A DNA stretch of 64,000 nucleotides from a virus, in the IMG/VR virus record IMGVR_UViG_3300009152_000004, positions 1 through 64,000 of that record. One strand, written 5' to 3'. Positions 2 to 63,772 of the stretch are shown here, in pieces (positions within the stretch are counted from its first letter, which is position 1; every line of letters starts with the position of its first letter). Both the position numbers and the translations under genes were made by a program. Below the pieces are notes generated by a model that was given only the letters and a program-made list of their open reading frames with translations, made no database searches and was not told the origin of the DNA.

Positions 2-217
2 GACTCGACGTCCATACTGCAAAAGTGCACCCTGCAACACAAAACTCACCCATGCGGCTGCGACGGTAATGGGTATAACGCCACTATTACGTCCGGTATT
101 TCCCTGCAACACGCTTGGTGGAGATTCACCCAGAAATCCAACGGGGTGCGTGTGCGTTATGTCTCCGATGAACCCGAAGAGGAATATGCAAAATGGCTCA
201 CTCCGTCGAAGAAATAA
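2..217 (+). CDS. C-terminal part of a small array protein, cut by window edge
   Basis: An open frame enters from the left edge and stops at TAA 215-217. The end resembles the C-terminal helix of the paralog array that follows (SLQHAWWRF, compare TLQHAF in the member at 62672). It also has a CGC-DGNGY turn. The next gene starts inside it at 193, the same overlap style as the rest of the array. If the window is circular, the frame joins in phase to the ATG at 63969 and gives an 82-residue protein. Function unknown. Confidence 0.6.
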   Translation, partial: DSTSILQKCTLQHKTHPCGCDGNGYNATITSGISLQHAWWRFTQKSNGVRVRYVSDEPEEEYAKWLTPSKK

Positions 218-405
218 AAGCGTTGTGTAAAGTAATGAACATCGAGATTTTTCGTGCGGGGGGTAGTCCCGGTAAAACATACGTTATCGGGTTATTCCAA
301 GATGCTTCTGCGCACAACCGCCTCGGTTCGGGCTCGGGCAAAAACTATGACGAAGCGCTTGTCGATGCATGGGGTGAATTTTTACGGGTGCATGGCCGCA
401 TATGA
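193..405 (+). CDS. Small paralog of the EEIxALxKLxG array (70 aa)
   Basis: Array member: N-terminal helix VEEIKALCKVMNI, a glycine/serine-rich variable middle, and a C-terminal helix DEALVDAWGEF. The start is ATG 193 inside the previous frame; the stop overlaps the next ATG at 402. Cytoplasmic, no signal or membrane segment. The helix-strand-helix layout recalls small phage alpha-beta sandwich proteins, but I cannot assign a named family or function. Confidence 0.75.
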   Translation: MAHSVEEIKALCKVMNIEIFRAGGSPGKTYVIGLFQDASAHNRLGSGSGKNYDEALVDAWGEFLRVHGRI

Positions 406-668
406 CCCACACCTGTGAAGAGATAGAAGCCCTCGTGCGGCTGATGGGGTTTGGTTTGATGCACCGTGCTGGAGAGACCAACATGCATCATGCTGGAGAG
501 ACCAACATGCATCATGTCTATATAACCACGCCCATAACACTGGCTGGTTGGGCGCACACGGTAGACACAACTATCATCGTAGCCGAAAACCACGGCACCA
601 GAGAACGAGCCTACGATGTAGCGTGGAAGAAATTACAGCAGTATCTGCGAGATAACCCAGCACCATGA
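402..668 (+). CDS. Small paralog of the array with internal 24-bp duplication (88 aa)
   Basis: Array member with helix CEEIEALVRLMGF and a C-terminal helix RERAYDVAWKKL. The variable middle contains AGETNMHH twice in a row, encoded by an exact 24-bp tandem duplication (468-515), so this copy has been lengthened recently by slippage or unequal exchange. Its start overlaps the previous stop by 4 bp and its stop overlaps the next ATG at 665. Function unknown. Confidence 0.75.
   Translation: MTHTCEEIEALVRLMGFGLMHRAGETNMHHAGETNMHHVYITTPITLAGWAHTVDTTIIVAENHGTRERAYDVAWKKLQQYLRDNPAP
468..515 (+). repeat. Two exact tandem 24-bp units inside a paralog gene
   Basis: Units at 468-491 and 492-515 both begin GCTGGAGAGACC and end CATGCATCAT. 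The unit is a multiple of three, so the frame is kept and eight residues (AGETNMHH) are added to the variable part of the protein. Confidence 0.95.
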
Positions 669-901
669 CCGAAAAAGAACTCCAGAACTACACCGAAGAA
701 GAGGCAAAAGCATTGTTGTTGGTGATGGGGTGTCGGCTGAAGGAACATCCAAAGCACGTCAAAGAGCCCGATATTTATTACCTGTATGGGGCGTACAGCG
801 ATGAAATATTCAACCGTGGGTACTCAGACGGTATGTGGGCCGACACATATAAAGACCTATTGCAGGATGTGCTGCGCGAGTTGGATGGGACAAATGACTA
901 A
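665..901 (+). CDS. Small paralog of the array (78 aa)
   Basis: Array member. The helix TEEEAKALLLVMGCRL matches the family head; the middle is tyrosine-rich (DIYYLYGAY) and the tail TYKDLLQDVLREL forms the last helix. Overlaps its neighbours at both ends (ATGA-type junction at 665, next start at 894). Function unknown. Confidence 0.75.
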   Translation: MTEKELQNYTEEEAKALLLVMGCRLKEHPKHVKEPDIYYLYGAYSDEIFNRGYSDGMWADTYKDLLQDVLRELDGTND

Positions 902-1190
902 ACTAACTACAAAAGAAATCGAAGCGTTGTTTGCCCTGCATGGGGTTAAGCTGCAAGATGAAACAAAACGCGGGCAAAGGATCAGGCAGTTTGACCATGA
1001 CAGAGAAGAGATGGCAGATGGGCGCGTGTGGGCTTGGTGGTATACGGGGGAAAAGTTACCGGCGGAGTTCAAATCGGCGATTGATGTAACAAGCCCGGAC
1101 ATGCCGCCCTTCACCCCGTATGATGAACAGGTCGCGGAGTTGTGGGAGTGGTATAACCGCACGAAGCAGTGGGAGAAGCGCTATGTCTGA
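894..1190 (+). CDS. Small paralog of the array (98 aa)
   Basis: Array member starting at ATG 894, which overlaps the TAA of the previous gene. Head TTKEIEALFALHGVKL; middle with VWAWWYTGEKL; C-terminal helix EQVAELWEWYNRT. One of the longer copies. A further upstream ATG in the same frame would lie inside the previous gene and is less likely. Function unknown. Confidence 0.72.
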   Translation: MTKLTTKEIEALFALHGVKLQDETKRGQRIRQFDHDREEMADGRVWAWWYTGEKLPAEFKSAIDVTSPDMPPFTPYDEQVAELWEWYNRTKQWEKRYV

Positions 1191-1392
1191 CGACGAAATC
1201 CGGGCGTTGTGCAAGCTGATGGGGGTGAAGATCGAAGAAGATGCCCATGATACCCCCGAAGTAAACCTACACCACTCTCCCGATGGGATTTTAGACCCCG
1301 GCACATGCGGCGGTCTTACCAACGGAAAAACGCTACGCATTGCGTGGCTGCGTTACTTGTGGAAACTGGGAGACCCTGATGGAAAAGAGTGA
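1183..1392 (+). CDS. Small paralog of the array (69 aa)
   Basis: Array member with a near-consensus head, DDEIRALCKLMGVKIE, and tail TLRIAWLRYLW. The middle is Pro/Gly/His-rich. ATG 1183 overlaps the previous TGA and the stop overlaps the next ATG (1379). Function unknown. Confidence 0.75.
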   Translation: MSDDEIRALCKLMGVKIEEDAHDTPEVNLHHSPDGILDPGTCGGLTNGKTLRIAWLRYLWKLGDPDGKE

Positions 1393-1594
1393 GGGAGTAG
1401 AACTGACTGAAAAAGAGGCGGAGGCGTTGCTAAAGCTGATGGGTTGGGGGGTTGAGGCAAAAGAACTATGGAGAGCAAACTCGGCGTACTACAACTTTCG
1501 GGCGGTGCGTTCTAGTTCTGATGGTGGCGTCCATTATGCGCCGGGTGATACATATCTTGAAATGCTGAAAGCGGTGATGAAACGTGAAGACTGA
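1379..1594 (+). CDS. Small paralog of the array (71 aa)
   Basis: Array member: LTEKEAEALLKLMGWGVE head, a middle with YYNFRAV, and tail DTYLEMLKAVMK. ATG 1379 lies inside the end of the previous gene, and this gene ends inside the start of the next. Function unknown. Confidence 0.75.
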   Translation: MEKSEGVELTEKEAEALLKLMGWGVEAKELWRANSAYYNFRAVRSSSDGGVHYAPGDTYLEMLKAVMKRED

Positions 1595-1856
1595 ACTGAG
1601 CACAGAAGAAATCGAAGCCCTGTGCAAGCTGGAGGGCATACACATTGAGAACGGGGCACCGGATGCGAAGGGGACTGTAGACCACACATGGAAACAAGTA
1701 ACACCTGACGGGAAGGTTTGGTTATGGAAGTGGAACGCTCGTTCTGGGTGGGACATAGTTGGGCAGGGCAGAGCAGATGTTAATAAAAGCTATAACATTC
1801 AGATACAAACGGCGTGGAAAGATTATAATGAACGTATCAAACGCGGTAAAGTTTAA
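1584..1856 (+). CDS. Small paralog of the array, last of the left block (90 aa)
   Basis: Array member: LSTEEIEALCKLEGIHIE head, tryptophan-rich middle (KVWLWKWNARSGWD) and tail IQIQTAWKDYNERIK. It ends the left block; a 60-bp gap with a weak promoter-like site separates it from the GIY-YIG gene. Function unknown. Confidence 0.75.
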   Translation: MKTELSTEEIEALCKLEGIHIENGAPDAKGTVDHTWKQVTPDGKVWLWKWNARSGWDIVGQGRADVNKSYNIQIQTAWKDYNERIKRGKV

Positions 1857-1917: not shown

Positions 1918-2574
1918 ATGATCGGCATATACGCAATAACCCACAACAAATCTGGAAAGCAGTACATCGGGCAGTCGGTGGATATAAAAGCCCGCTGGCA
2001 AGAACATCGAAGAATGCTCGCGCTGGGGTCGCACCATAACCCTAAACTGCAGGCACATTGGAATAAATACGGGCCGGGGGCCTTCAAATTTCACACCCTC
2101 ATTGAGTGTCAAAAAACCGAATTAAACGCGCTTGAACAGAAGTATCTGGATTTAGAACCATGGTTCAACGTGGCGAAGTGCGCTACTGCACCTACGCGGG
2201 GTAGAAAGATGCCCCCGGGGTTTGGCCAAAAACTATCACAAATATTAAAAGGTAAAAAACGCACGCCCGAGCAACGCCAACGAATGTCACAAAACCGAAT
2301 AGGAATTGTGTTTACCCCCGAACACCGGGCGGCGCTCCGCAAAGCAAACTTAGGAACAACAAGACCGGCTAACCGCCGCCAAGTAAAGTGTATGGAAACG
2401 GAAGAAATATTCCCCATGCTGAAAGCAGTGGTCCACAAATACGGAGGGCGACTATCGCACTTATCAACGCATTTATCTGGATGTGAAACAAGAAAACATT
2501 TTCGTGGGTTGCATTTTGTGTATGTAAACGTATCAAAAACTTGGAAACCAAGAGGAAAAAGGAGAATCAAATGA
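1918..2574 (+). CDS. GIY-YIG homing-type endonuclease
   Basis: The first 30 residues carry the catalytic fold signature: GIYAI then KQYIGQSVDIKARWQEH (GIY...YIG with the following arginine). The C-terminal half has repeated DNA-binding modules of the NUMOD3 kind (RTPEQRQRMS, FTPEHRAALRKAN). Such free-standing nucleases cut DNA at a specific site and spread between phages. 218 aa; its stop overlaps the ATG of the next gene by 4 bp, and it lies between the paralog array and the conserved genes, as expected of an inserted mobile gene. Confidence 0.88.
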   Translation: MIGIYAITHNKSGKQYIGQSVDIKARWQEHRRMLALGSHHNPKLQAHWNKYGPGAFKFHTLIECQKTELNALEQKYLDLEPWFNVAKCATAPTRGRKMPPGFGQKLSQILKGKKRTPEQRQRMSQNRIGIVFTPEHRAALRKANLGTTRPANRRQVKCMETEEIFPMLKAVVHKYGGRLSHLSTHLSGCETRKHFRGLHFVYVNVSKTWKPRGKRRIK

Positions 2575-8410: not shown

Positions 8411-8587
8411 ATGAAACACCGCACGAAGAAGCACGCGCAGCCTGAATTTAAAAACAATAGAGAGCAAATGAAGCTCAATATGGCCGCGCGGAAACGCCTT
8501 GAAGAAATACGAGACGAGGAAGACGAAGATGAAATCGAACAAGCTGCAAGGCGATACGAGCGAGACCCAGACCCCGGCGGAGATTAA
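8411..8587 (+). CDS. Highly charged small protein (58 aa)
   Basis: ATG 8411, ends TAA 8587, overlapping the next gene by 59 bp in another frame. Composition is mostly Lys/Arg then Asp/Glu (RKRLEEIRDEEDEDEIEQ). It could be real, or the open frame could be a by-product of the overlap; there is no strong ribosome site. Confidence 0.35.
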   Translation: MKHRTKKHAQPEFKNNREQMKLNMAARKRLEEIRDEEDEDEIEQAARRYERDPDPGGD

Positions 8588-8804
8588 AGCCCTCTTGAAG
8601 CTGAGTGGGGTGGAAGTGGTTGAAACTCTGTTTGAAGCATATGGCGGCGAACACGACAAGTCACTCCACGATAACTACGGGCCGACCTATTGGCGGGTGA
8701 TGGTGAGGCCATACAGTGGTGGTAAAGCCTTCCGATCCGCCCAACGGGACACCGCATGGCAACAGGTATGGGAGTGGTACAAACGTGGAGAGGATTTAAA
8801 ATGA
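8529..8804 (+). CDS. Small paralog of the array, polymerase-proximal (91 aa)
   Basis: Array member away from the main blocks. After a 15-residue leader (MKSNKLQGDTSETQT) comes the family head PAEIKALLKLSGVEVVE, an aromatic middle (YGPTYWRVMVRPY) and the tail RDTAWQQVWEWYKRG. ATG 8529 chosen over an upstream TTG. Its presence here shows that the family moves within the genome. Function unknown. Confidence 0.72.
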   Translation: MKSNKLQGDTSETQTPAEIKALLKLSGVEVVETLFEAYGGEHDKSLHDNYGPTYWRVMVRPYSGGKAFRSAQRDTAWQQVWEWYKRGEDLK

Positions 8805-9010
8805 CCGAAGAAGAATTGAAGGCCCTGTTGTTGGTGGAGGGGTTTGAGCTACATGTATACCCAACAGCTACAGACCCGGACGCGTTGTGGATGGTTGATT
8901 TTAATGACATGCACGGTCGCCGCAAAATCCCGGCGAACTCCACAAACAACACACGCGAAGAAGCCGTGCAGCAGGCGGTTGGTTACTACAAACTGGGCCC
9001 CCTACGATGA
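8801..9010 (+). CDS. Small paralog of the array, next to polymerase (69 aa)
   Basis: Array member: TEEELKALLLVEGFEL head, DALWMVDFNDMHGRRK middle and tail TREEAVQQAVGYYKL. ATG 8801 overlaps the previous TGA, and its stop overlaps the polymerase ATG at 9007, so it is in one translational chain with the polymerase. Confidence 0.75.
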   Translation: MTEEELKALLLVEGFELHVYPTATDPDALWMVDFNDMHGRRKIPANSTNNTREEAVQQAVGYYKLGPLR

Positions 9011-33626: not shown

Positions 33627-33989
33627 CTACTGGACCCAGTTGGGGGTTTGGGCATCGTTTATATCCACCCAAAACGACGTTTGCCCATCATCAACCGCCA
33701 CCCAACCCGGGCTACCTGACGGGCTTACTGGGGTCCAACCCGGGCTACCTGACGGGCTTACTGGGGTCCAAATTGCACCGTTCCCGGCGTCGATCACAGA
33801 CCAAATTGTAACCGATCCCAGCGCACCTGTGGCATACACCCCCAGCGGTGTAACCGTGCAACCCAAGGCCACCGAAACAGTGCCAACCTCGCCCGTTCCC
33901 AACACCCCCGTAACCGATACTGTGACCGTAACGGCTTCAATTTGGAATCCATTGTTTTGGAACGCATCAAATTGAAACGCAGTAGCCAC
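33627..33989 (-). CDS. Small virion-region protein with duplicated SPSGSPGW block
   Basis: 120 aa, beta-rich (VTVTVSVTGVLGTGEVGTV). The segment WTPVSPSGSPG occurs twice, from an exact 33-bp DNA duplication. N-terminal FQFDAFQNNGFQ is aromatic. Between the fibre and methyltransferase genes. Probably a fibre-associated protein; function unknown. Confidence 0.6.
   Translation of the reverse strand: MATAFQFDAFQNNGFQIEAVTVTVSVTGVLGTGEVGTVSVALGCTVTPLGVYATGALGSVTIWSVIDAGNGAIWTPVSPSGSPGWTPVSPSGSPGWVAVDDGQTSFWVDINDAQTPNWVQ
33704..33769 (-). repeat. Exact 33-bp tandem duplication in frame
   Basis: Two units (33704-33736 and 33737-33769), each starting AACCCGGGCTACC on the plus strand. Adds eleven residues to the encoded protein without a frameshift. 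Confidence 0.95.
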
Positions 33990-58285: not shown

Positions 58286-58339
58286 GATTGATTCTCCAAT
58301 AAAACGGAAGGATGCAATTGCTTCCTTGACCGTGACTCC

Positions 58340-58368
58340 ATTATGCCATAGAACCGTTCCTTAAACAA
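58340..58368 (-). promoter_or_regulatory. Promoter for the 57731 gene
   Basis: Minus strand TTGTTT (58368-58363), 17-bp spacer, CATAAT (58345-58340), 55 bp upstream of the ATG. Leftward outlet of the control region. Confidence 0.55.
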
Positions 58369-58471
58369 ATATCCCAAATGAATACCCGACTAAATCACTC
58401 CGTCTTTTTAAGACCGACAAGACTGTAGGGTTATTACCTGACCCGAACACAACCCCTACCCAAAACCCCCA

Positions 58472-58486
58472 TGCTGCAATGCAGCA
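58472..58486. repeat. Perfect 15-bp palindrome
   Basis: TGCTGCAATGCAGCA (7-bp arms, central A). Lies between the leftward promoter and the first control-region repeat; operator-like. Confidence 0.7.
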
Positions 58487-58490
58487 CCCC

Positions 58491-58519
58491 CATGATAGTT
58501 CCTTTGTCGGCGGTGGCGC
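58491..58519 (+). repeat. Left copy of a 29-bp split direct repeat
   Basis: CATGATAGTTC, seven variable bases, GGCGGTGGCGC. An identical pair of 11-bp arms with different centre occurs at 59318-59346; together they bracket the octamer cluster. Confidence 0.85.
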
Positions 58520-58930
58520 GAGTCCACAATTTGGTCGCGTTTGTAAGTCCTTGATTTTCAACCACCATTACATTACTGGGAGTAGGGTTATTAGCCATGT
58601 CATTGATTCTATTGCGTTTTGGGAGGCGTGGACTTTCACAAAAAGACGTTGAAATGAACACTTTTGACCCTCTAATAAAAATACACGTATTTCTATACAC
58701 TAATGTAAAACGACCCGAAATATACGCAAAAAAGTGGGCGCTCGTAAGTCATTGATAAGTAGTATGCATTCCCACAATGTTCCAAAGGGTATTATAAGTC
58801 CTTGATTATAAATGGAACATTTTAGGGGGTGTTTTTCCCTTTAAAATCAACATGTTCCAAAATCTGTTCCAAAACCCTACTAGCGTCATGGAACACGTTA
58901 TTTACCTTTAGAATCAAATACTTAGGTGAG

Positions 58931-58939
58931 TTATCCACA
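58931..58939 (+). promoter_or_regulatory. Consensus DnaA box
   Basis: TTATCCACA, exact match to the E. coli consensus, inside the octamer cluster. One perfect 9-mer could occur by chance in 64 kb with modest probability; the setting makes it credible. Confidence 0.65.
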
Positions 58940-58989
58940 GCAATGTTCCAAGATTTCCAACATATATGGTCTGGTAACCAAAAGTGTTC

Positions 58990-59007
58990 AAAAAAACGCG
59001 TTTTTTT
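58990..59007. repeat. Perfect 18-bp palindrome A7CGCGT7
   Basis: Seven A, CGCG, seven T in the middle of the candidate origin. Easily melted arms around a CpG core; possible unwinding or protein-binding site, or a weak bidirectional terminator. Confidence 0.75.
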
Positions 59008-59317
59008 ATTAGCCTAAAATGGCAGGAGCCCCAGACCCCGTATACCTTTTGCTTGGAACATTTGGAACATTCAGGCATCCTATAATAATAATAATCTTTA
59101 AAAACAATTAGTTAGTAGATGTTCCAAATGTTCCAAACTTTTGCCTCGACCCCTAACCCATTGATTTTAAATGGAACATATTTCACCTGTGCATTCAAAG
59201 ACTTACACCACTTTTTTCTCTAAGTCCTTGATTATAGGCTTGGAACATTTGCAAATCTGCCTCTTTTTTAATCAGTTGGGGTTTTATTGCACCGCACCAC
59301 AGATCAGGCCCAACCCG

Positions 59318-59346
59318 CATGATAGTTCTCGCGTAGGCGGTGGCGC
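59318..59346 (+). repeat. Right copy of the 29-bp split direct repeat
   Basis: CATGATAGTTC, seven bases (TCGCGTA), GGCGGTGGCGC; same orientation as the copy at 58491. It lies about 90 bp upstream of the rightward promoter. Confidence 0.85.
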
Positions 59347-59434
59347 AACGCCCTCCAGACCCAAAGCCAACACACCAGAAGCCCACCGAACTCCCCATCG
59401 GGCCCCGTCACACCTCACTTTACACTCCAAATAC

Positions 59435-59463
59435 TTGTATTACAAACGCTTTTCCGGTATAAT
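59435..59463 (+). promoter_or_regulatory. Rightward early promoter
   Basis: TTGTAT (59435-59440), exact 17-bp spacer, perfect TATAAT (59458-59463); start expected near 59470. No gene begins for about 890 bp, so the first product is a long leader or a non-coding RNA. Confidence 0.75.
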
Positions 59464-59469
59464 AGTAGT

Positions 59470-60340
59470 ACGATGGGTAGTAAAGAAGTGGTCAGGAAGT
59501 ACCCCATCACCGCTCTTTAAAAACAAGCGCCGTGCCGAACCAGCGCACGGCAACAAAGTCCACAGGCAGGAGTTACGGCCTGTGGTTGGCAGGGCTTTGA
59601 CCTGATGCGTTTCAACAACAGTGTGTGGACACCCACACCACGCTCAGACCTCCCTGCGGTTCAAACCGGCAACTCACGCGCACCAACAGTAACCCGAAGC
59701 ACCCAATGAACCCATTGGCTGTGATCAGTAAGACGGGGCAATAACAATAGCGGCAACACCAGCGCCCCCCGCAACCAGAAGGCCCAATGGCAGTAGGCGT
59801 GACCACGATGTAACGGCAGCGACTGCATGAAGTAATAGGTACAAACCCAAACACCCCGCCAGATCGCATGGAAGCAGCTAGAGATACGTCCGAGGCATGT
59901 GGTGGAGGGCATGGCGTGAGCCAACCCCCATGATCCCGCTAAACCTCATACGAACGTCCCCAGCCCTACCCATGCGTCCCACGACGCTGAACCGACGTAG
60001 GGGGAAACCCCACACAACCCGTCAAACTGGCAACGAACGAGAGCAAACTCAGCACACCAACCCCTGCGGTAACCCGCTAAATATGTGGACACTCCCACAT
60101 AGGAAGTCCCTGCTGTCTCGCATAGAGTCAATCCAGAAGCGCCGTGTAACAAATCAAAATGAACAAAGCAGGCAATACAATGCAGCCGCACGCAAACCCA
60201 ATACCAGACCGGAGAAACCAAGAAACCTGTGTAGTATAAATCCGCGTCTTCTCTGTTGGGCAGGAACGGTACCCCCGTTTAAACCAGACATCCTGCGTGC
60301 GACTGCTGTGTGTGCTGCCTAGAGGGGTGAGATAAAACCG
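59470..60340 (+). ncRNA. Candidate large structured non-coding RNA (about 870 nt)
   Basis: No convincing gene in six frames; open frames that cross it have no ribosome site or protein-like composition. Many local hairpins: GATGGG/CCCATC (59473-), GCCGTGC/GCACGGC (59530-59551), CCACAGGC/GCCTGTGG (59559-59586), GTGTGG/CCACAC (59620s), CCAATG AACC CATTGG (59702-59718), GGGG GAAA CCCC with a GNRA loop (60000-60014), GCGG TAAC CCGC (60065-60077), TATGTGG/CCACATA (60082-60102), AACGG/CCGTT (60266-60281). Strong promoter upstream. Size, promoter and phage context recall giant phage RNAs such as GOLLD or ROOL, but I cannot match a consensus by eye. Confidence 0.45.
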
Positions 60341-60362
60341 AACCAAACGTAAAGGAGAACCA

Positions 60363-60767: not shown

Positions 60768-60831
60768 AGCGAAGCAAGGAAGAAGTACAACCCACCCCTC
60801 TAGCCAGCATATACAACCAAGGAGAACTATC

Positions 60832-60879
60832 ATGAGCGGCGAAAACCAGAACCCAACCACCCCGAAGAAAACCAAATGA
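60832..60879 (+). CDS. Possible 15-codon leader ORF
   Basis: ATG 60832 has an ideal AAGGAGAACTATC site and the stop overlaps the next ATG (ATGA at 60876). The downstream gene has no site of its own, so this leader probably delivers ribosomes to it. Peptide is MSGENQNPTTPKKTK. Confidence 0.5.
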   Translation: MSGENQNPTTPKKTK

Positions 60880-61088: not shown

Positions 61089-61364
61089 GTGAACCCTGAA
61101 ACCATACCCGACCTGACCGAAGAAGAAATCAAAGCCCTAGTCAGGCTGCACGGATGGTATATCGGGTATATCAGCGCGGGTGGAGGCCGACGTACTTACC
61201 GGGTGTTCAATGAGAACAACTGGTGTGTTGGCGAAGGCAATACGTTGGCCGGAGCGTACGCAGATGCTTGCCAGAACGAAGACTCGGGGCACAATGAGCA
61301 GTTCAAGGTTTCCCCCGGGCCGTGGGTGAAGACTATAGACAAAATCAAAGCGGGAGAGATATGA
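61089..61364 (+). CDS. Small paralog of the array, first of the right block (91 aa)
   Basis: Array member: LTEEEIKALVRLHGWYIG head, TYRVFNENNWCVGEG middle, NTLAGAYADACQNEDSG tail followed by a 20-residue extension. Start after CAGAGGTGAAAC. Opens the right block. Function unknown. Confidence 0.75.
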   Translation: MNPETIPDLTEEEIKALVRLHGWYIGYISAGGGRRTYRVFNENNWCVGEGNTLAGAYADACQNEDSGHNEQFKVSPGPWVKTIDKIKAGEI

Positions 61365-61687
61365 AAAACCAAAAAACTATCATCATGCTGTTCATCATCG
61401 CACTGCTCCCGGCATGTGCGCCCAACCCAACCGTGGATAACCCCGACGAGATCATTGTGCGTTGGGTGCGTATGCAGCCATCAGAGGTGAGGGCCAAGTG
61501 TGGTGCAGACGCAGAAGCCTGTTTCCGTACGACACAAGGTAAGCATGTGATTTATACACGCAAACCCACAGGCCCGTACGATGAGCAACTGCATCGCGCA
61601 TTGGGTCATGAACTACGTCATGGGTTCGAAGGGTATTTCCACGGCACGGCCCGCCGGTATGTAGACCTGAAGAGTCTGGGCCAATGA
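61361..61687 (+). CDS. Lipoprotein with HExxH metal site (108 aa)
   Basis: MKNQKTIIMLFIIALLPAC is a lipoprotein signal (lipobox LPAC, Cys19). The mature part has CGADAEACFRT (possible disulphide), VIYTRKP, and RALGHELRHGFEGYFHG: HELRH is an HExxH zinc motif followed by a further histidine. A mini metallopeptidase or metal-dependent envelope protein, perhaps acting against competing phages or in lysis; catalytic activity unproven. Embedded between array paralogs, 4-bp overlaps on both sides. Confidence 0.7.
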   Translation: MKNQKTIIMLFIIALLPACAPNPTVDNPDEIIVRWVRMQPSEVRAKCGADAEACFRTTQGKHVIYTRKPTGPYDEQLHRALGHELRHGFEGYFHGTARRYVDLKSLGQ

Positions 61688-61932
61688 CAACCGAAGAACA
61701 AAACGCGCTGTGTAGGATGATGGGGTTTAAACTCATATACCACCCCTCCAACTCACAATCTTATAAATCTTATATCCAATGGGGAATCAGATCGCTACCT
61801 AACGGCATGTTTTGGTTGGGGTATGGCAATACGTTTGAAGAGGTGTTCAATAACGCTTGCGAGACGGTAAAAAAACATCCCGAGTGGTTGAGAGACGGCC
61901 CGGCAGGAGAAGAGCAATGGAAAATAAACTGA
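61684..61932 (+). CDS. Small paralog of the array (82 aa)
   Basis: Array member: TTEEQNALCRMMGFKLIYH head, middle with YIQWGIRSL and MFWLGYGNTF, tail EEVFNNACETVKK. Overlaps the lipoprotein stop and the next start. Function unknown. Confidence 0.75.
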   Translation: MTTEEQNALCRMMGFKLIYHPSNSQSYKSYIQWGIRSLPNGMFWLGYGNTFEEVFNNACETVKKHPEWLRDGPAGEEQWKIN

Positions 61933-62246
61933 CCGACAACGAAGTGCGAGCGTTGTGTAAATTGCAGGGGGTGGTTTTATATAAGGGCGCGATGCTGCGG
62001 CCCGACAACTGCCCGAAACCCGGATATATTCTATTCACTCGGACGGGGTGGTGGTTGTGCGAAGACTATACTGCGCATGATGCATATATGTGGTTTGCCG
62101 ATCCACCAAAAAAGAGCGGCTTATACATGGAAGCACCAACCGGGTATAGCGCTGAAGAATTGGAGTGGATGACAACCCGAACAGATGAGGGCCCCTTTTC
62201 CATTCTCGCTGAGAATGGACTACAACAAAACGCAGAACTATCATGA
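61917..62246 (+). CDS. Small paralog of the array, long copy (109 aa)
   Basis: Array member from ATG 61917 (GGAGAAGAGCA upstream): LTDNEVRALCKLQGVVLYK head, ILFTRTGWWLCEDYTAHDAYMWF middle/tail, then a 45-residue extension (TGYSAEELEWMTTR) that could be a remnant of another copy. Function unknown. Confidence 0.7.
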   Translation: MENKLTDNEVRALCKLQGVVLYKGAMLRPDNCPKPGYILFTRTGWWLCEDYTAHDAYMWFADPPKKSGLYMEAPTGYSAEELEWMTTRTDEGPFSILAENGLQQNAELS

Positions 62247-62458
62247 CCGAAGACACCCCACTCCGCCCGGAAATCAAAGCGTTAACCTACGCCCAAATCA
62301 AAGCCCTGTGCAAACTGCAAGGATGGAAGGCAGTAAAAAAACCGTTTGGTTGGGCGATAGACGATCCTAGAGACGAACTGATGTATAAGGGTACTGGTAG
62401 GCAACTGAAGCTGGCGTACCAAGACGCGCTGGACACTACGGATAAAGAATGCAACTAA
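62243..62458 (+). CDS. Small paralog of the array (71 aa)
   Basis: Array member: LTYAQIKALCKLQGWKAV head, PFGWAIDDPRDELMYKGTG middle, QLKLAYQDALDTT tail. ATGA overlap with the previous gene; stop overlaps the next start. Function unknown. Confidence 0.75.
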   Translation: MTEDTPLRPEIKALTYAQIKALCKLQGWKAVKKPFGWAIDDPRDELMYKGTGRQLKLAYQDALDTTDKECN

Positions 62459-62694
62459 CTGAAGACGAAGCCCGCGCTCTGACCAAGCTGCATGGGTGGG
62501 AGATCGAAGACGAGCCTGAGCCGTGGAAGTATGAGAACGCCAGATGGTGGGTGTACGACGTGATATCCGACCCTAGGCCACTAAACGGCTACAGAGACTA
62601 TCTGGCCTGCGGCGAGACCATAGCTGAAGCGTATCAAAAAGCTGCGAAAGAATCAGACCGGAGGGCCCGACTTGGAACCGCAACTGACCTTTAA
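62449..62694 (+). CDS. Small paralog of the array (81 aa)
   Basis: Array member: LTEDEARALTKLHGWEIEDE head, YENARWWVYDVISDPRPLNGY middle, ETIAEAYQKAAKESDRRA tail. The close match of head and tail to the consensus makes it a good query for family searches. Function unknown. Confidence 0.75.
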   Translation: MQLTEDEARALTKLHGWEIEDEPEPWKYENARWWVYDVISDPRPLNGYRDYLACGETIAEAYQKAAKESDRRARLGTATDL

Positions 62695-62915
62695 AGAGGT
62701 GCAGGCGATCTGCAATATGCGTGGGTGGGTGGGTGCTGTACCGGCCAAGAGAACCCAAACGTAATATATTGGCCTCCACAGATGCTCACCCAAAGAAATA
62801 CAAAATATACACCAAAACAGCACCCCATTTTTGGTTAGGCACGGGTAGGACCCCGGGGCTGACATTGCAACACGCGTTTGATTATTCCGAACAGAACCCT
62901 GAGTATGACGTATGA
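62672..62915 (+). pseudogene. Array paralog broken by a (TGGG)n frameshift
   Basis: TTG 62672 after CGGAGGGCCCGAC starts LTFKEVQAICNMRGW, the family head, but the frame stops at 62764. The tail continues in another frame: RPREPKRNILAST...HFWLGTGRTPGLTLQHAFDYSEQN to TGA 62915. Removing one 4-bp TGGG unit from the run at 62722-62734 fuses the two into a perfect family member. Either phase-variable or recently inactivated. Confidence 0.8.
62722..62734 (+). repeat. Three TGGG units at the frameshift
   Basis: TGGGTGGGTGGGT; each unit is 4 bp, so gain or loss of one changes the reading frame. Two units restore the paralog. Confidence 0.92.
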
Positions 62916-62944
62916 AAACAATTGAAGAAGTAAAAGCGAAATGA
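62912..62944 (+). pseudogene. N-terminal remnant of an array paralog
   Basis: Ten codons MKTIEEVKAK ending TGA: the exact start of the family helix (TxEEVKAL...) and nothing more. Overlaps the stop of the frameshifted copy. Either a deletion scar or a leader peptide for the next member. Confidence 0.5.
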
Positions 62945-62956
62945 GGGAGAGTAATC

Positions 62957-63190
62957 ATGACCTACACCAAGGAAGAGATTGAAGCGGTGTTGAAACTCGC
63001 GGGCCTTAGACTGAAAACAAAAACGAGATCAGCGACAGCGGTGCAATATGGTTTGCATCCTTGGGTTGGGCTGATCTATGTCGACCCCGGCAAAGATAAT
63101 GGACGTGCAATCACATCAGGCGGTGGTGAAACTGAAGAAGAGGCCGTCCAGAAGATGTTTGCGAACTGGTTGAGGGAGAAGCAGATATGA
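62957..63190 (+). CDS. Small paralog of the array (77 aa)
   Basis: Array member: YTKEEIEAVLKLAGLRLK head, WVGLIYVDPGKDNGRAITS middle, TEEEAVQKMFANWLRE tail. GGGAGAGTAATC upstream. Function unknown. Confidence 0.75.
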   Translation: MTYTKEEIEAVLKLAGLRLKTKTRSATAVQYGLHPWVGLIYVDPGKDNGRAITSGGGETEEEAVQKMFANWLREKQI

Positions 63191-63525
63191 GAAAAATAAA
63201 TCTGACTAAAAAAGAAATCGAAGCGTTGGCGGCGCTTGATGGTGTGAAGATAGCGGTGACCAGAAGAACCTATAGGGCCGAAACGTACGGGCCCGGCACT
63301 TACTATGGGCACATATTTTCGAAGTCCGGTGCGCGGATAATAGATAAAGCCGGGTTCCAAGGCGAAGGGGAGACCAGCGTGCAGTGTGTGAAAAACACAT
63401 GGGTCAAGTGGTGTAAGTATTGTGAAGAAAGTGAAGCGACACGAACTGGACTATTATTGATAAAGGTGTTGAAGCCCAGCAAGCATGGGACAAAGCATGG
63501 GCACGATTCGAATCGGGAGAGGTAG
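63187..63525 (+). CDS. Small paralog of the array with run-on tail (112 aa)
   Basis: Array member: LTKKEIEALAALDGVKIAV head, TYYGHIFSKSGARI middle, TSVQCVKNTWVKWCKYCEE tail at about residue 80. The last 30 residues (ATRTGLLLIKVLKPSKHG...) are read in the wrong frame across a C-terminal fragment of another paralog, so they are probably a run-on created by a deletion. Confidence 0.7.
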   Translation: MRKINLTKKEIEALAALDGVKIAVTRRTYRAETYGPGTYYGHIFSKSGARIIDKAGFQGEGETSVQCVKNTWVKWCKYCEESEATRTGLLLIKVLKPSKHGTKHGHDSNRER

Positions 63526-63530
63526 TTTGA
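63435..63530 (+). pseudogene. C-terminal remnant of an array paralog
   Basis: In the third frame: SDTNWTIIDKGVEAQQAWDK followed by AWARFESGEVV and TGA, a textbook family C-terminus without its head (stops lie just upstream). It sits under the run-on tail of the previous gene. Evidence for deletion or recombination between members. Confidence 0.65.
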
Positions 63531-63772
63531 AGCGTCTAACCCGCGAAGAAAAAATCGCTCTAATGAAACTCGCGGGGATGGAAGTGCATGAGTATGGGGA
63601 TGCAAAGTATGCTGGGTACTCTAATTACAACTGTTTATGCGAAATATACCCACCGGGTTCCAGTCACGTACGTCATAAAGGATACGGCCACACCAAGCAA
63701 CAAGCCCTGAATAATTGCTTTGCGGCGTTTAAAAACGGACAATTTAAGGTGCAGCCAAAAGGAGCTAAATAA
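63527..63772 (+). CDS. Small paralog of the array, TTG start (81 aa)
   Basis: TTG 63527 behind GGGAGAGG. LTREEKIALMKLAGMEVHE head, YSNYNCLCEIYPPGSSHV middle, TKQQALNNCFAAFKNG tail. Starts just after the stop of the previous gene and overlaps the next by 1 bp. Function unknown. Confidence 0.72.
   Translation: MKRLTREEKIALMKLAGMEVHEYGDAKYAGYSNYNCLCEIYPPGSSHVRHKGYGHTKQQALNNCFAAFKNGQFKVQPKGAK

Follow-up and report, generated by a model that had tools for sequence, protein, structure and literature searches.

What a single phage might do with about twenty divergent copies of one small gene is the question raised by the IMG/VR virus record IMGVR_UViG_3300009152_000004, whose first 64,000 of 69,057 bases form the stretch analysed here, referred to as the window. 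A first reading of the window, made from its letters without database searches (the sequence-only reading), had described a family of about 20 small paralogues in which a conserved head and tail enclose a variable centre. This family was confirmed and proved slightly larger than described: the whole circular genome contains 19 intact members and one frameshifted member (C6). In a leave-one-out procedure, in which a profile built from the remaining members was searched against 955 six-frame open reading frames, all 19 of the 19 intact members were retrieved with E-values of 4e-5 to 2e-10. The best matches to non-members were the pieces of C6 (E ~0.0025-0.04) and, in a single run, a protein of another small family described below (E 0.03). 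The head is also seen at the DNA level as a 44-nucleotide repeat family with 11 copies, and the heads of the paralogues align without gaps at a mean identity of 44%. The isoelectric points (pI) of the members extend from 4.6 to 9.6 and their net charges from -8 to +9. The family members, together with one gene interleaved among them, are listed below with the E-values of the leave-one-out searches.

2..217, + strand: A1, 3' part; the complete gene starts at 68855 and encodes 98 amino acids; E 6e-6
193..405, + strand: A2, 70 amino acids; E 1e-7
402..668, + strand: A3, 88 amino acids; E 8e-8
665..901, + strand: A4, 78 amino acids; E 1.5e-8
885..1190, + strand: A5, 101 amino acids; E 8e-6
1183..1392, + strand: A6, 69 amino acids; E 7e-9
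1379..1594, + strand: A7, 71 amino acids; E 1e-8
1584..1856, + strand: A8, 90 amino acids, GTG start; E 2e-9
8529..8804, + strand: B1, 91 amino acids; E 2e-6
8801..9010, + strand: B2, 69 amino acids, ATGA overlap with the start of the DNA polymerase gene; E 5e-9
61089..61364, + strand: C1, 91 amino acids, GTG start; E 2e-8
61361..61687, + strand: lipoprotein-like non-member interleaved in array C, sequence MKNQKTIIMLFIIALLPACAPN
61684..61932, + strand: C2, 82 amino acids; E 1.5e-7
61917..62246, + strand: C3, 109 amino acids; E 4e-5
62243..62458, + strand: C4, 71 amino acids; E 3e-6
62449..62694, + strand: C5, 81 amino acids; E 3e-10
62672..62915, + strand: C6, frameshifted; its two pieces are the best other matches in most of the leave-one-out runs
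62957..63190, + strand: C7, 77 amino acids, structure predicted; E 2e-10
63187..63525, + strand: C8, 112 amino acids; E 2e-8
63485..63772, + strand: C9, start at 63485 or 63497; E 1.4e-5
64709..65011, + strand: D1, single copy, outside the window

The members thus form array A, from 68855 across the junction of the record ends to 1856, array B at 8529-9010 and array C at 61089-63772, in addition to the single copy D1. The eight genes read at the left edge and the two at 8529-9010 are present, the gene at base 2 being the 3' end of the gene that starts at 68855, while the cluster at 61089-63772, for which about ten intact or broken copies had been counted, does hold members, but eight intact and one frameshifted. 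The overlapping, coupled arrangement was likewise found, with adjacent members sharing 4 to 25 bases, in many cases exactly 4, and the sole gap lying between C6 and C7. In C6 the head is in one frame and the centre and tail are in another, with the break near a short GTGG repeat. The lipoprotein-like gene, which overlaps both C1 and C2 by 4 bases, carries an HELRH motif and had no match in a Pfam search.

Since 123 identical bases are repeated at both ends of the record and contig L003 spans the end junction with 0 mismatches, the genome is circular or circularly permuted, with a length of ~68,934 bp; the other contigs found for this phage are identical across the shared stretch. All arrays lie on the plus strand, and the clusters at the two ends of the record lie opposite one another across the junction. 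The minus strand carries the structural genes and the plus strand the replication and accessory genes, the plus-strand unit starting after a divergent intergenic region of 2 kb (~58.3-60.4 kb). Because the arrays lie in this unit and array C is close to its start, early expression is likely. The divergent region itself (58300-60360) contains many TGTTCCA/TGGAACA words and several AAGTCCTTGATT-like repeats and is possibly an origin or control region. The word GAACTATCATG occurs in four exact copies (58491-58501, 59318-59328, 60824-60834 and 62235-62245), two of which precede start codons and two of which are inverted within the intergenic region; with one mismatch allowed there are 5 matches against 0.8 expected. 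A perfect 33-nucleotide tandem repeat was also observed at 33702-33771, within a minus-strand gene of the structural region.

The division into a constant scaffold and a hypervariable centre, which had been proposed from the paralogues, is clearest in the orthologues of D1 from related phages (n = 4). Their identity is 91% in the head, 22% from beta1 into its loop, 32% in strand 2, 13% in the beta2-beta3 loop and 60% in beta3 and helix 2, with gaps of ~30% in both loop parts. The proportion of nonsynonymous differences (pN) in the head is 0.05-0.12 versus a proportion of synonymous differences (pS) of 0.5-1.0, and in the centre pN is 0.41-0.65 versus a pS of 0.54-0.75. As judged from these comparisons, the pattern fits a scaffold kept by purifying selection and a centre that is either little constrained or diversifying. 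The description of the family as rapidly varying applies to the centre; positive selection is neither demonstrated nor excluded, given the near-saturation of synonymous sites, and some of the divergence of D1 resembles allelic exchange. Between the related contigs L110 and L134, the MoxR genes encode proteins with 99% identity (dS 0.08), and D1 has a dS of ~1.0 and a dN/dS of 0.31 and is among the least identical stretches, with adjacent genes intermediate. Three neighbouring genes including D1 (L110:679-2164 versus L134:5332-6826) show a dS of 0.4-1.0, and the genes after them a dS of 0.02-0.1, which suggests that this block may have been replaced by allelic exchange of divergent alleles. A 24-nucleotide tandem duplication at 459-516, in the variable loop of A3, is a direct trace of loop-length change. 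The conserved positions, namely TxEE at helix 1, G at its end and T/S before helix 2, look like hydrophobic core and helix caps. As no exposed polar residue common to the members stands out either, the function may well reside in the variable surface.

Structures were predicted with AlphaFold for two members, D1 (predicted local distance difference test, pLDDT, 85; predicted template modelling score, pTM, 0.73) and C7 (pLDDT 88, pTM 0.76). Agreement in fold between members, which the family claim calls for, was found, as both models have the order helix 1, three strands, helix 2 (alpha-beta-beta-beta-alpha). In a Foldseek search of D1 against the PDB, the first 16 matches were all proteins containing a double-stranded RNA-binding domain (dsRBD), with probabilities of 0.89-1.00 and E-values of 0.009-0.05. 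C7 gave the same dsRBD picture, its top match being the protein-binding Staufen dsRBD5 complexed with Miranda, and a search against viral models placed a DRBM protein and an RNase III within the first four matches. The family resembles dsRBDs in its predicted topology, in the GxGx(S/T) turn before helix 2 and in its top structure matches. It differs from them in lacking the lysines of the KKxAK motif at the start of helix 2, where K/R occurs in 10/26, 2/26 and 0/26 sequences at the three positions and the last position is always hydrophobic, in a non-significant profile comparison, and in having no match to the dsRBD profile PF00035, with which the genome was searched at E up to 10. On the basis of the models, the family has a predicted dsRBD-like fold without the RNA-binding signature of dsRBDs.

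It might be assumed from the fold and the GxGx(S/T) turn that the proteins are true dsRBDs that regulate phage or host messages by binding RNA. Given the K/R counts at the KKxAK positions, the acidic character of many members and the missing PF00035 match, such regulators are very improbable, and dsRNA binding as a function was rejected because the key lysines are missing. The absence of the RNA-contact lysines and the wide pI range fit a single RNA less well than a variety of protein or ligand partners. Small size, genomic position, a conserved scaffold that shows no evident active site, variable loops, pI range and lineage-specific copy number together fit a set of binding proteins for different host molecules. 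We therefore favour, with about as much confidence as doubt, the view that the arrays are a host-targeting binding repertoire on a dsRBD-like scaffold that would serve early takeover or counter-defence.

Proteins with comparable folds that act in this way offer an analogy for such a role. Acb4 of phage SPO1 is a 96-residue sponge of the cyclic oligonucleotide-based antiphage signalling system (CBASS), whose monomer resembles dsRBDs (PMC11722364). Like the members described here, Acb4 (Phage_gp49_66, PF13876) is phage-encoded, measures ~96 amino acids and has a dsRBD-resembling monomer (PMC11722364); unlike them, it is described as a widespread family rather than as tandem copies within a single genome, and its binding residues are not recognisable in the members. 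Membership in this family was rejected, as searching the genome with PF13876 at E up to 10 gave nothing and a scan of 26 members likewise gave no match. The arrays could nevertheless encode Acb4-like nucleotide sponges, that is, oligomers of the dsRBD fold with loops tuned to the cyclic-nucleotide signals of CBASS, Thoeris or type III CRISPR. The similar size and dsRBD-like monomer of Acb4 (PMC11722364) would suit such sponges, and differing ligands are explicable by variation of pocket residues. However, the pocket of Acb4 is strongly positive and its interfaces are conserved, whereas the members vary in net charge between -8 and +9 and share no conserved exposed polar position, and with PF13876 unmatched in the genome we regard sponges as improbable.

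The second comparison for a host-targeting repertoire is Gp1.2 of T7, which is annotated as an inhibitor of the host dGTPase and whose complex is weakly matched by the C7 model (7u65_G, probability 0.57). Gp1.2, too, is a small phage protein; its gene neighbours early genes, its target is a host enzyme and it is among the fold matches of C7, but it is single copy, has no sequence similarity to the members and matches only weakly in fold. Sequence homology to Gp1.2 was rejected (hhalign E 0.45 over 7 columns). The possible relation to the phage alpha-beta (ABA) sandwich domain (PF18066) that had been suggested earlier, also a small phage alpha/beta protein, was not upheld, as a genome search with PF18066 returned nothing at E up to 10 and the structure search points elsewhere, the models being closest to dsRBDs. 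Searches of the members against Pfam, PHROG and PADLOC gave no convincing family match, in line with the earlier statement that no described system with this layout is known to its author; weak PHROG and PADLOC matches (E 0.004-0.3), each to one or two members, were treated as chance. No account of such a layout was found in the literature searched, which is weak evidence given the partial coverage.

Relatives of the family were found only in a narrow circle of phages. Orthologues of D1 lie upstream of a MoxR ATPase gene in five other contigs. In the sister phages, whose VWA and MoxR proteins are ~60-68% identical to those of this phage, D1 is a single copy, and three of their contigs (L108, L110, L134) cover the sites corresponding to the arrays. 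The phage represented by contig L111 has three copies right after its VWA gene, which is the position of array A, and two of these group with A4 and A7 in the family tree with moderate support; the tree as a whole has long branches and few supported forks. In a distant phage (G008), between four and six copies stand next to VWA and next to the DNA polymerase gene, the latter being the neighbourhood of array B, and G009 has one copy beside the polymerase. A 286-amino-acid protein of G008 (L105:4343-5203) resembles the family in its C-terminal part (E 0.3-3) and perhaps carries a fused copy. No member was found in 40/48 related records, which were searched whole, in the cultured relatives selected by terminase (DSL-LC04, 023Pt_psg01, HTVC027P, HTVC023P and MinM2) or in the comparison phages Rollin and D520. 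A scan of IMG/VR for EIxALCKLxG yielded only this phage and unrelated proteins, mostly the tails of prohead proteases, while scans for EEAxALLKV, EAVLKMAG and EEI(E/K)ALx(K/R)LxG found members only in the L111 phage, G008 and this phage. The EIRALCKLAGK-like words in the C-terminal tails of ClpP-type prohead proteases (L085, L086, L088, L089, L092) are apparently a coincidence. A host-genome search with the VWA protein gave no match.

A lineage-specific expansion of a single-copy gene follows from this distribution, because D1 stands alone in the sister phages, other phages have three or four to six copies and 40/48 records have none. The simplest history is that the gene is old and confined to few phages, that it persists stably as a single copy (D1), and that individual lineages expanded it in tandem, this phage most of all.

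The association with MoxR and VWA raises the alternative that the members are client adaptors of these two phage proteins, in which the head docks and the centre selects the client. D1 lies directly or nearly upstream of MoxR in every phage that has it, and copies stand beside VWA here, in the L111 phage and in G008. However, MoxR and VWA occur without any member in most of the related phages that encode them, copies also occur beside the DNA polymerase gene and at the start of the plus-strand unit, and the conserved residues of the head look more like core and caps than like a docking face on the surface; an adaptor role thus appears quite improbable. The same region, between the genes for MoxR and VWA, also holds a further series of small tandem genes, whose products close with a PMPIEEAEALAKLLN-like helix. 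This second small family has 4 copies here (L001:8206-9109, corresponding to genome positions 66206-67109), two in the L111 phage (L111:951-1474) and one in L108 (L108:7807-8025), and had no match in a Pfam search.

The way in which the copies multiplied may be indicated by the borders of array A, where the following gene begins 61 bases past A8.

1918..2574, + strand: GIY-YIG homing endonuclease gene (PF01541, E 2e-9; weaker matches to SegE_GIY-YIG and NUMOD3)

On the other side, a gene at 68324-68806, which has no Pfam match and which we take to be a probable HNH-type endonuclease gene, ends 48 bases before A1; the sister phages L110 and L134 have two ordinary genes at this place. For T4, amplification of the small anti-defence gene tifA has been documented (PMC9391042), and SegB, a GIY-YIG endonuclease, promotes such amplification for anti-defence genes (PMC13096335). 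Both situations combine a small gene in tandem copies with a nearby GIY-YIG gene, but the T4/T6 copies are recent, identical and derived from experiments (PMC9391042, PMC13096335), whereas those described here are fixed, deeply diverged and present at several sites.

The arrays might instead be mostly neutral, a by-product of tandem duplication and the activity of homing endonucleases, with most copies decaying and having no separate function. Endonuclease genes flanking array A on both sides (the HNH-type one being probable), the broken copy C6, the proximity of pN to pS in the centre and the sufficiency of one copy in the sister phages would all agree with this. The probability of such a by-product is nevertheless low, since 19/20 reading frames are intact despite deep divergence, the heads of the paralogues have kept their ungapped 44% identity and phage genomes tend to shed useless genes.

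For the host-targeting repertoire, the following course of events can be proposed. An ancestral copy would have been amplified through tandem duplication, in array A possibly aided by the homing endonucleases at its ends, and the copies would then have diverged in the loops and strand 2 while retaining the hydrophobic core and the helix caps. Each copy would act as a binding protein that blocks or redirects a different host molecule early in infection, most likely a defence or takeover molecule, so that the arrays would constitute a repertoire of counter-defence or host-takeover effectors. In its most specific form, with ~20 early effectors on a dsRBD-like scaffold, endonuclease-assisted amplification and every copy retargeted through its loops to a different defence or takeover molecule, the proposal is possible but doubtful. 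Several points weigh against a host-targeting repertoire in general. The fold matches are individually weak, none having an E-value <0.001, and the dsRBD likeness is therefore a similarity at the level of the fold; hhalign comparison with five dsRBDs gave no significant match, aligning just locally at the GxGx(S/T) turn. The centre may vary simply through absent constraint; the synonymous sites are too saturated for positive selection to be revealed. Early expression is read from position alone, no convincing promoters were found, no anti-CRISPR-associated or known anti-defence genes were recognised next to the arrays, and no endonuclease gene adjoins array B or C.

The known phage answers to host defences are mostly single, unrelated small proteins, and the amplification of anti-defence genes has mainly been watched in laboratory evolution. 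Precedents already exist, as single proteins for the fold and in experiments for amplification; what is new is a fixed and diversified set of ~20 dsRBD-like paralogues in one phage. With ~20 diverged copies maintained in nature, such a phage would show where amplification can lead, and the arrays are a ready library for studying the retargeting of one small fold, with the single-copy D1 of the sister phages as a natural comparison. Another predicted dsRBD-like fold in a phage suggests a favoured starting point for phage binding proteins, and if the most specific form of the proposal is true, the arrays would be a phage counterpart to the expanded effector families of cellular pathogens.

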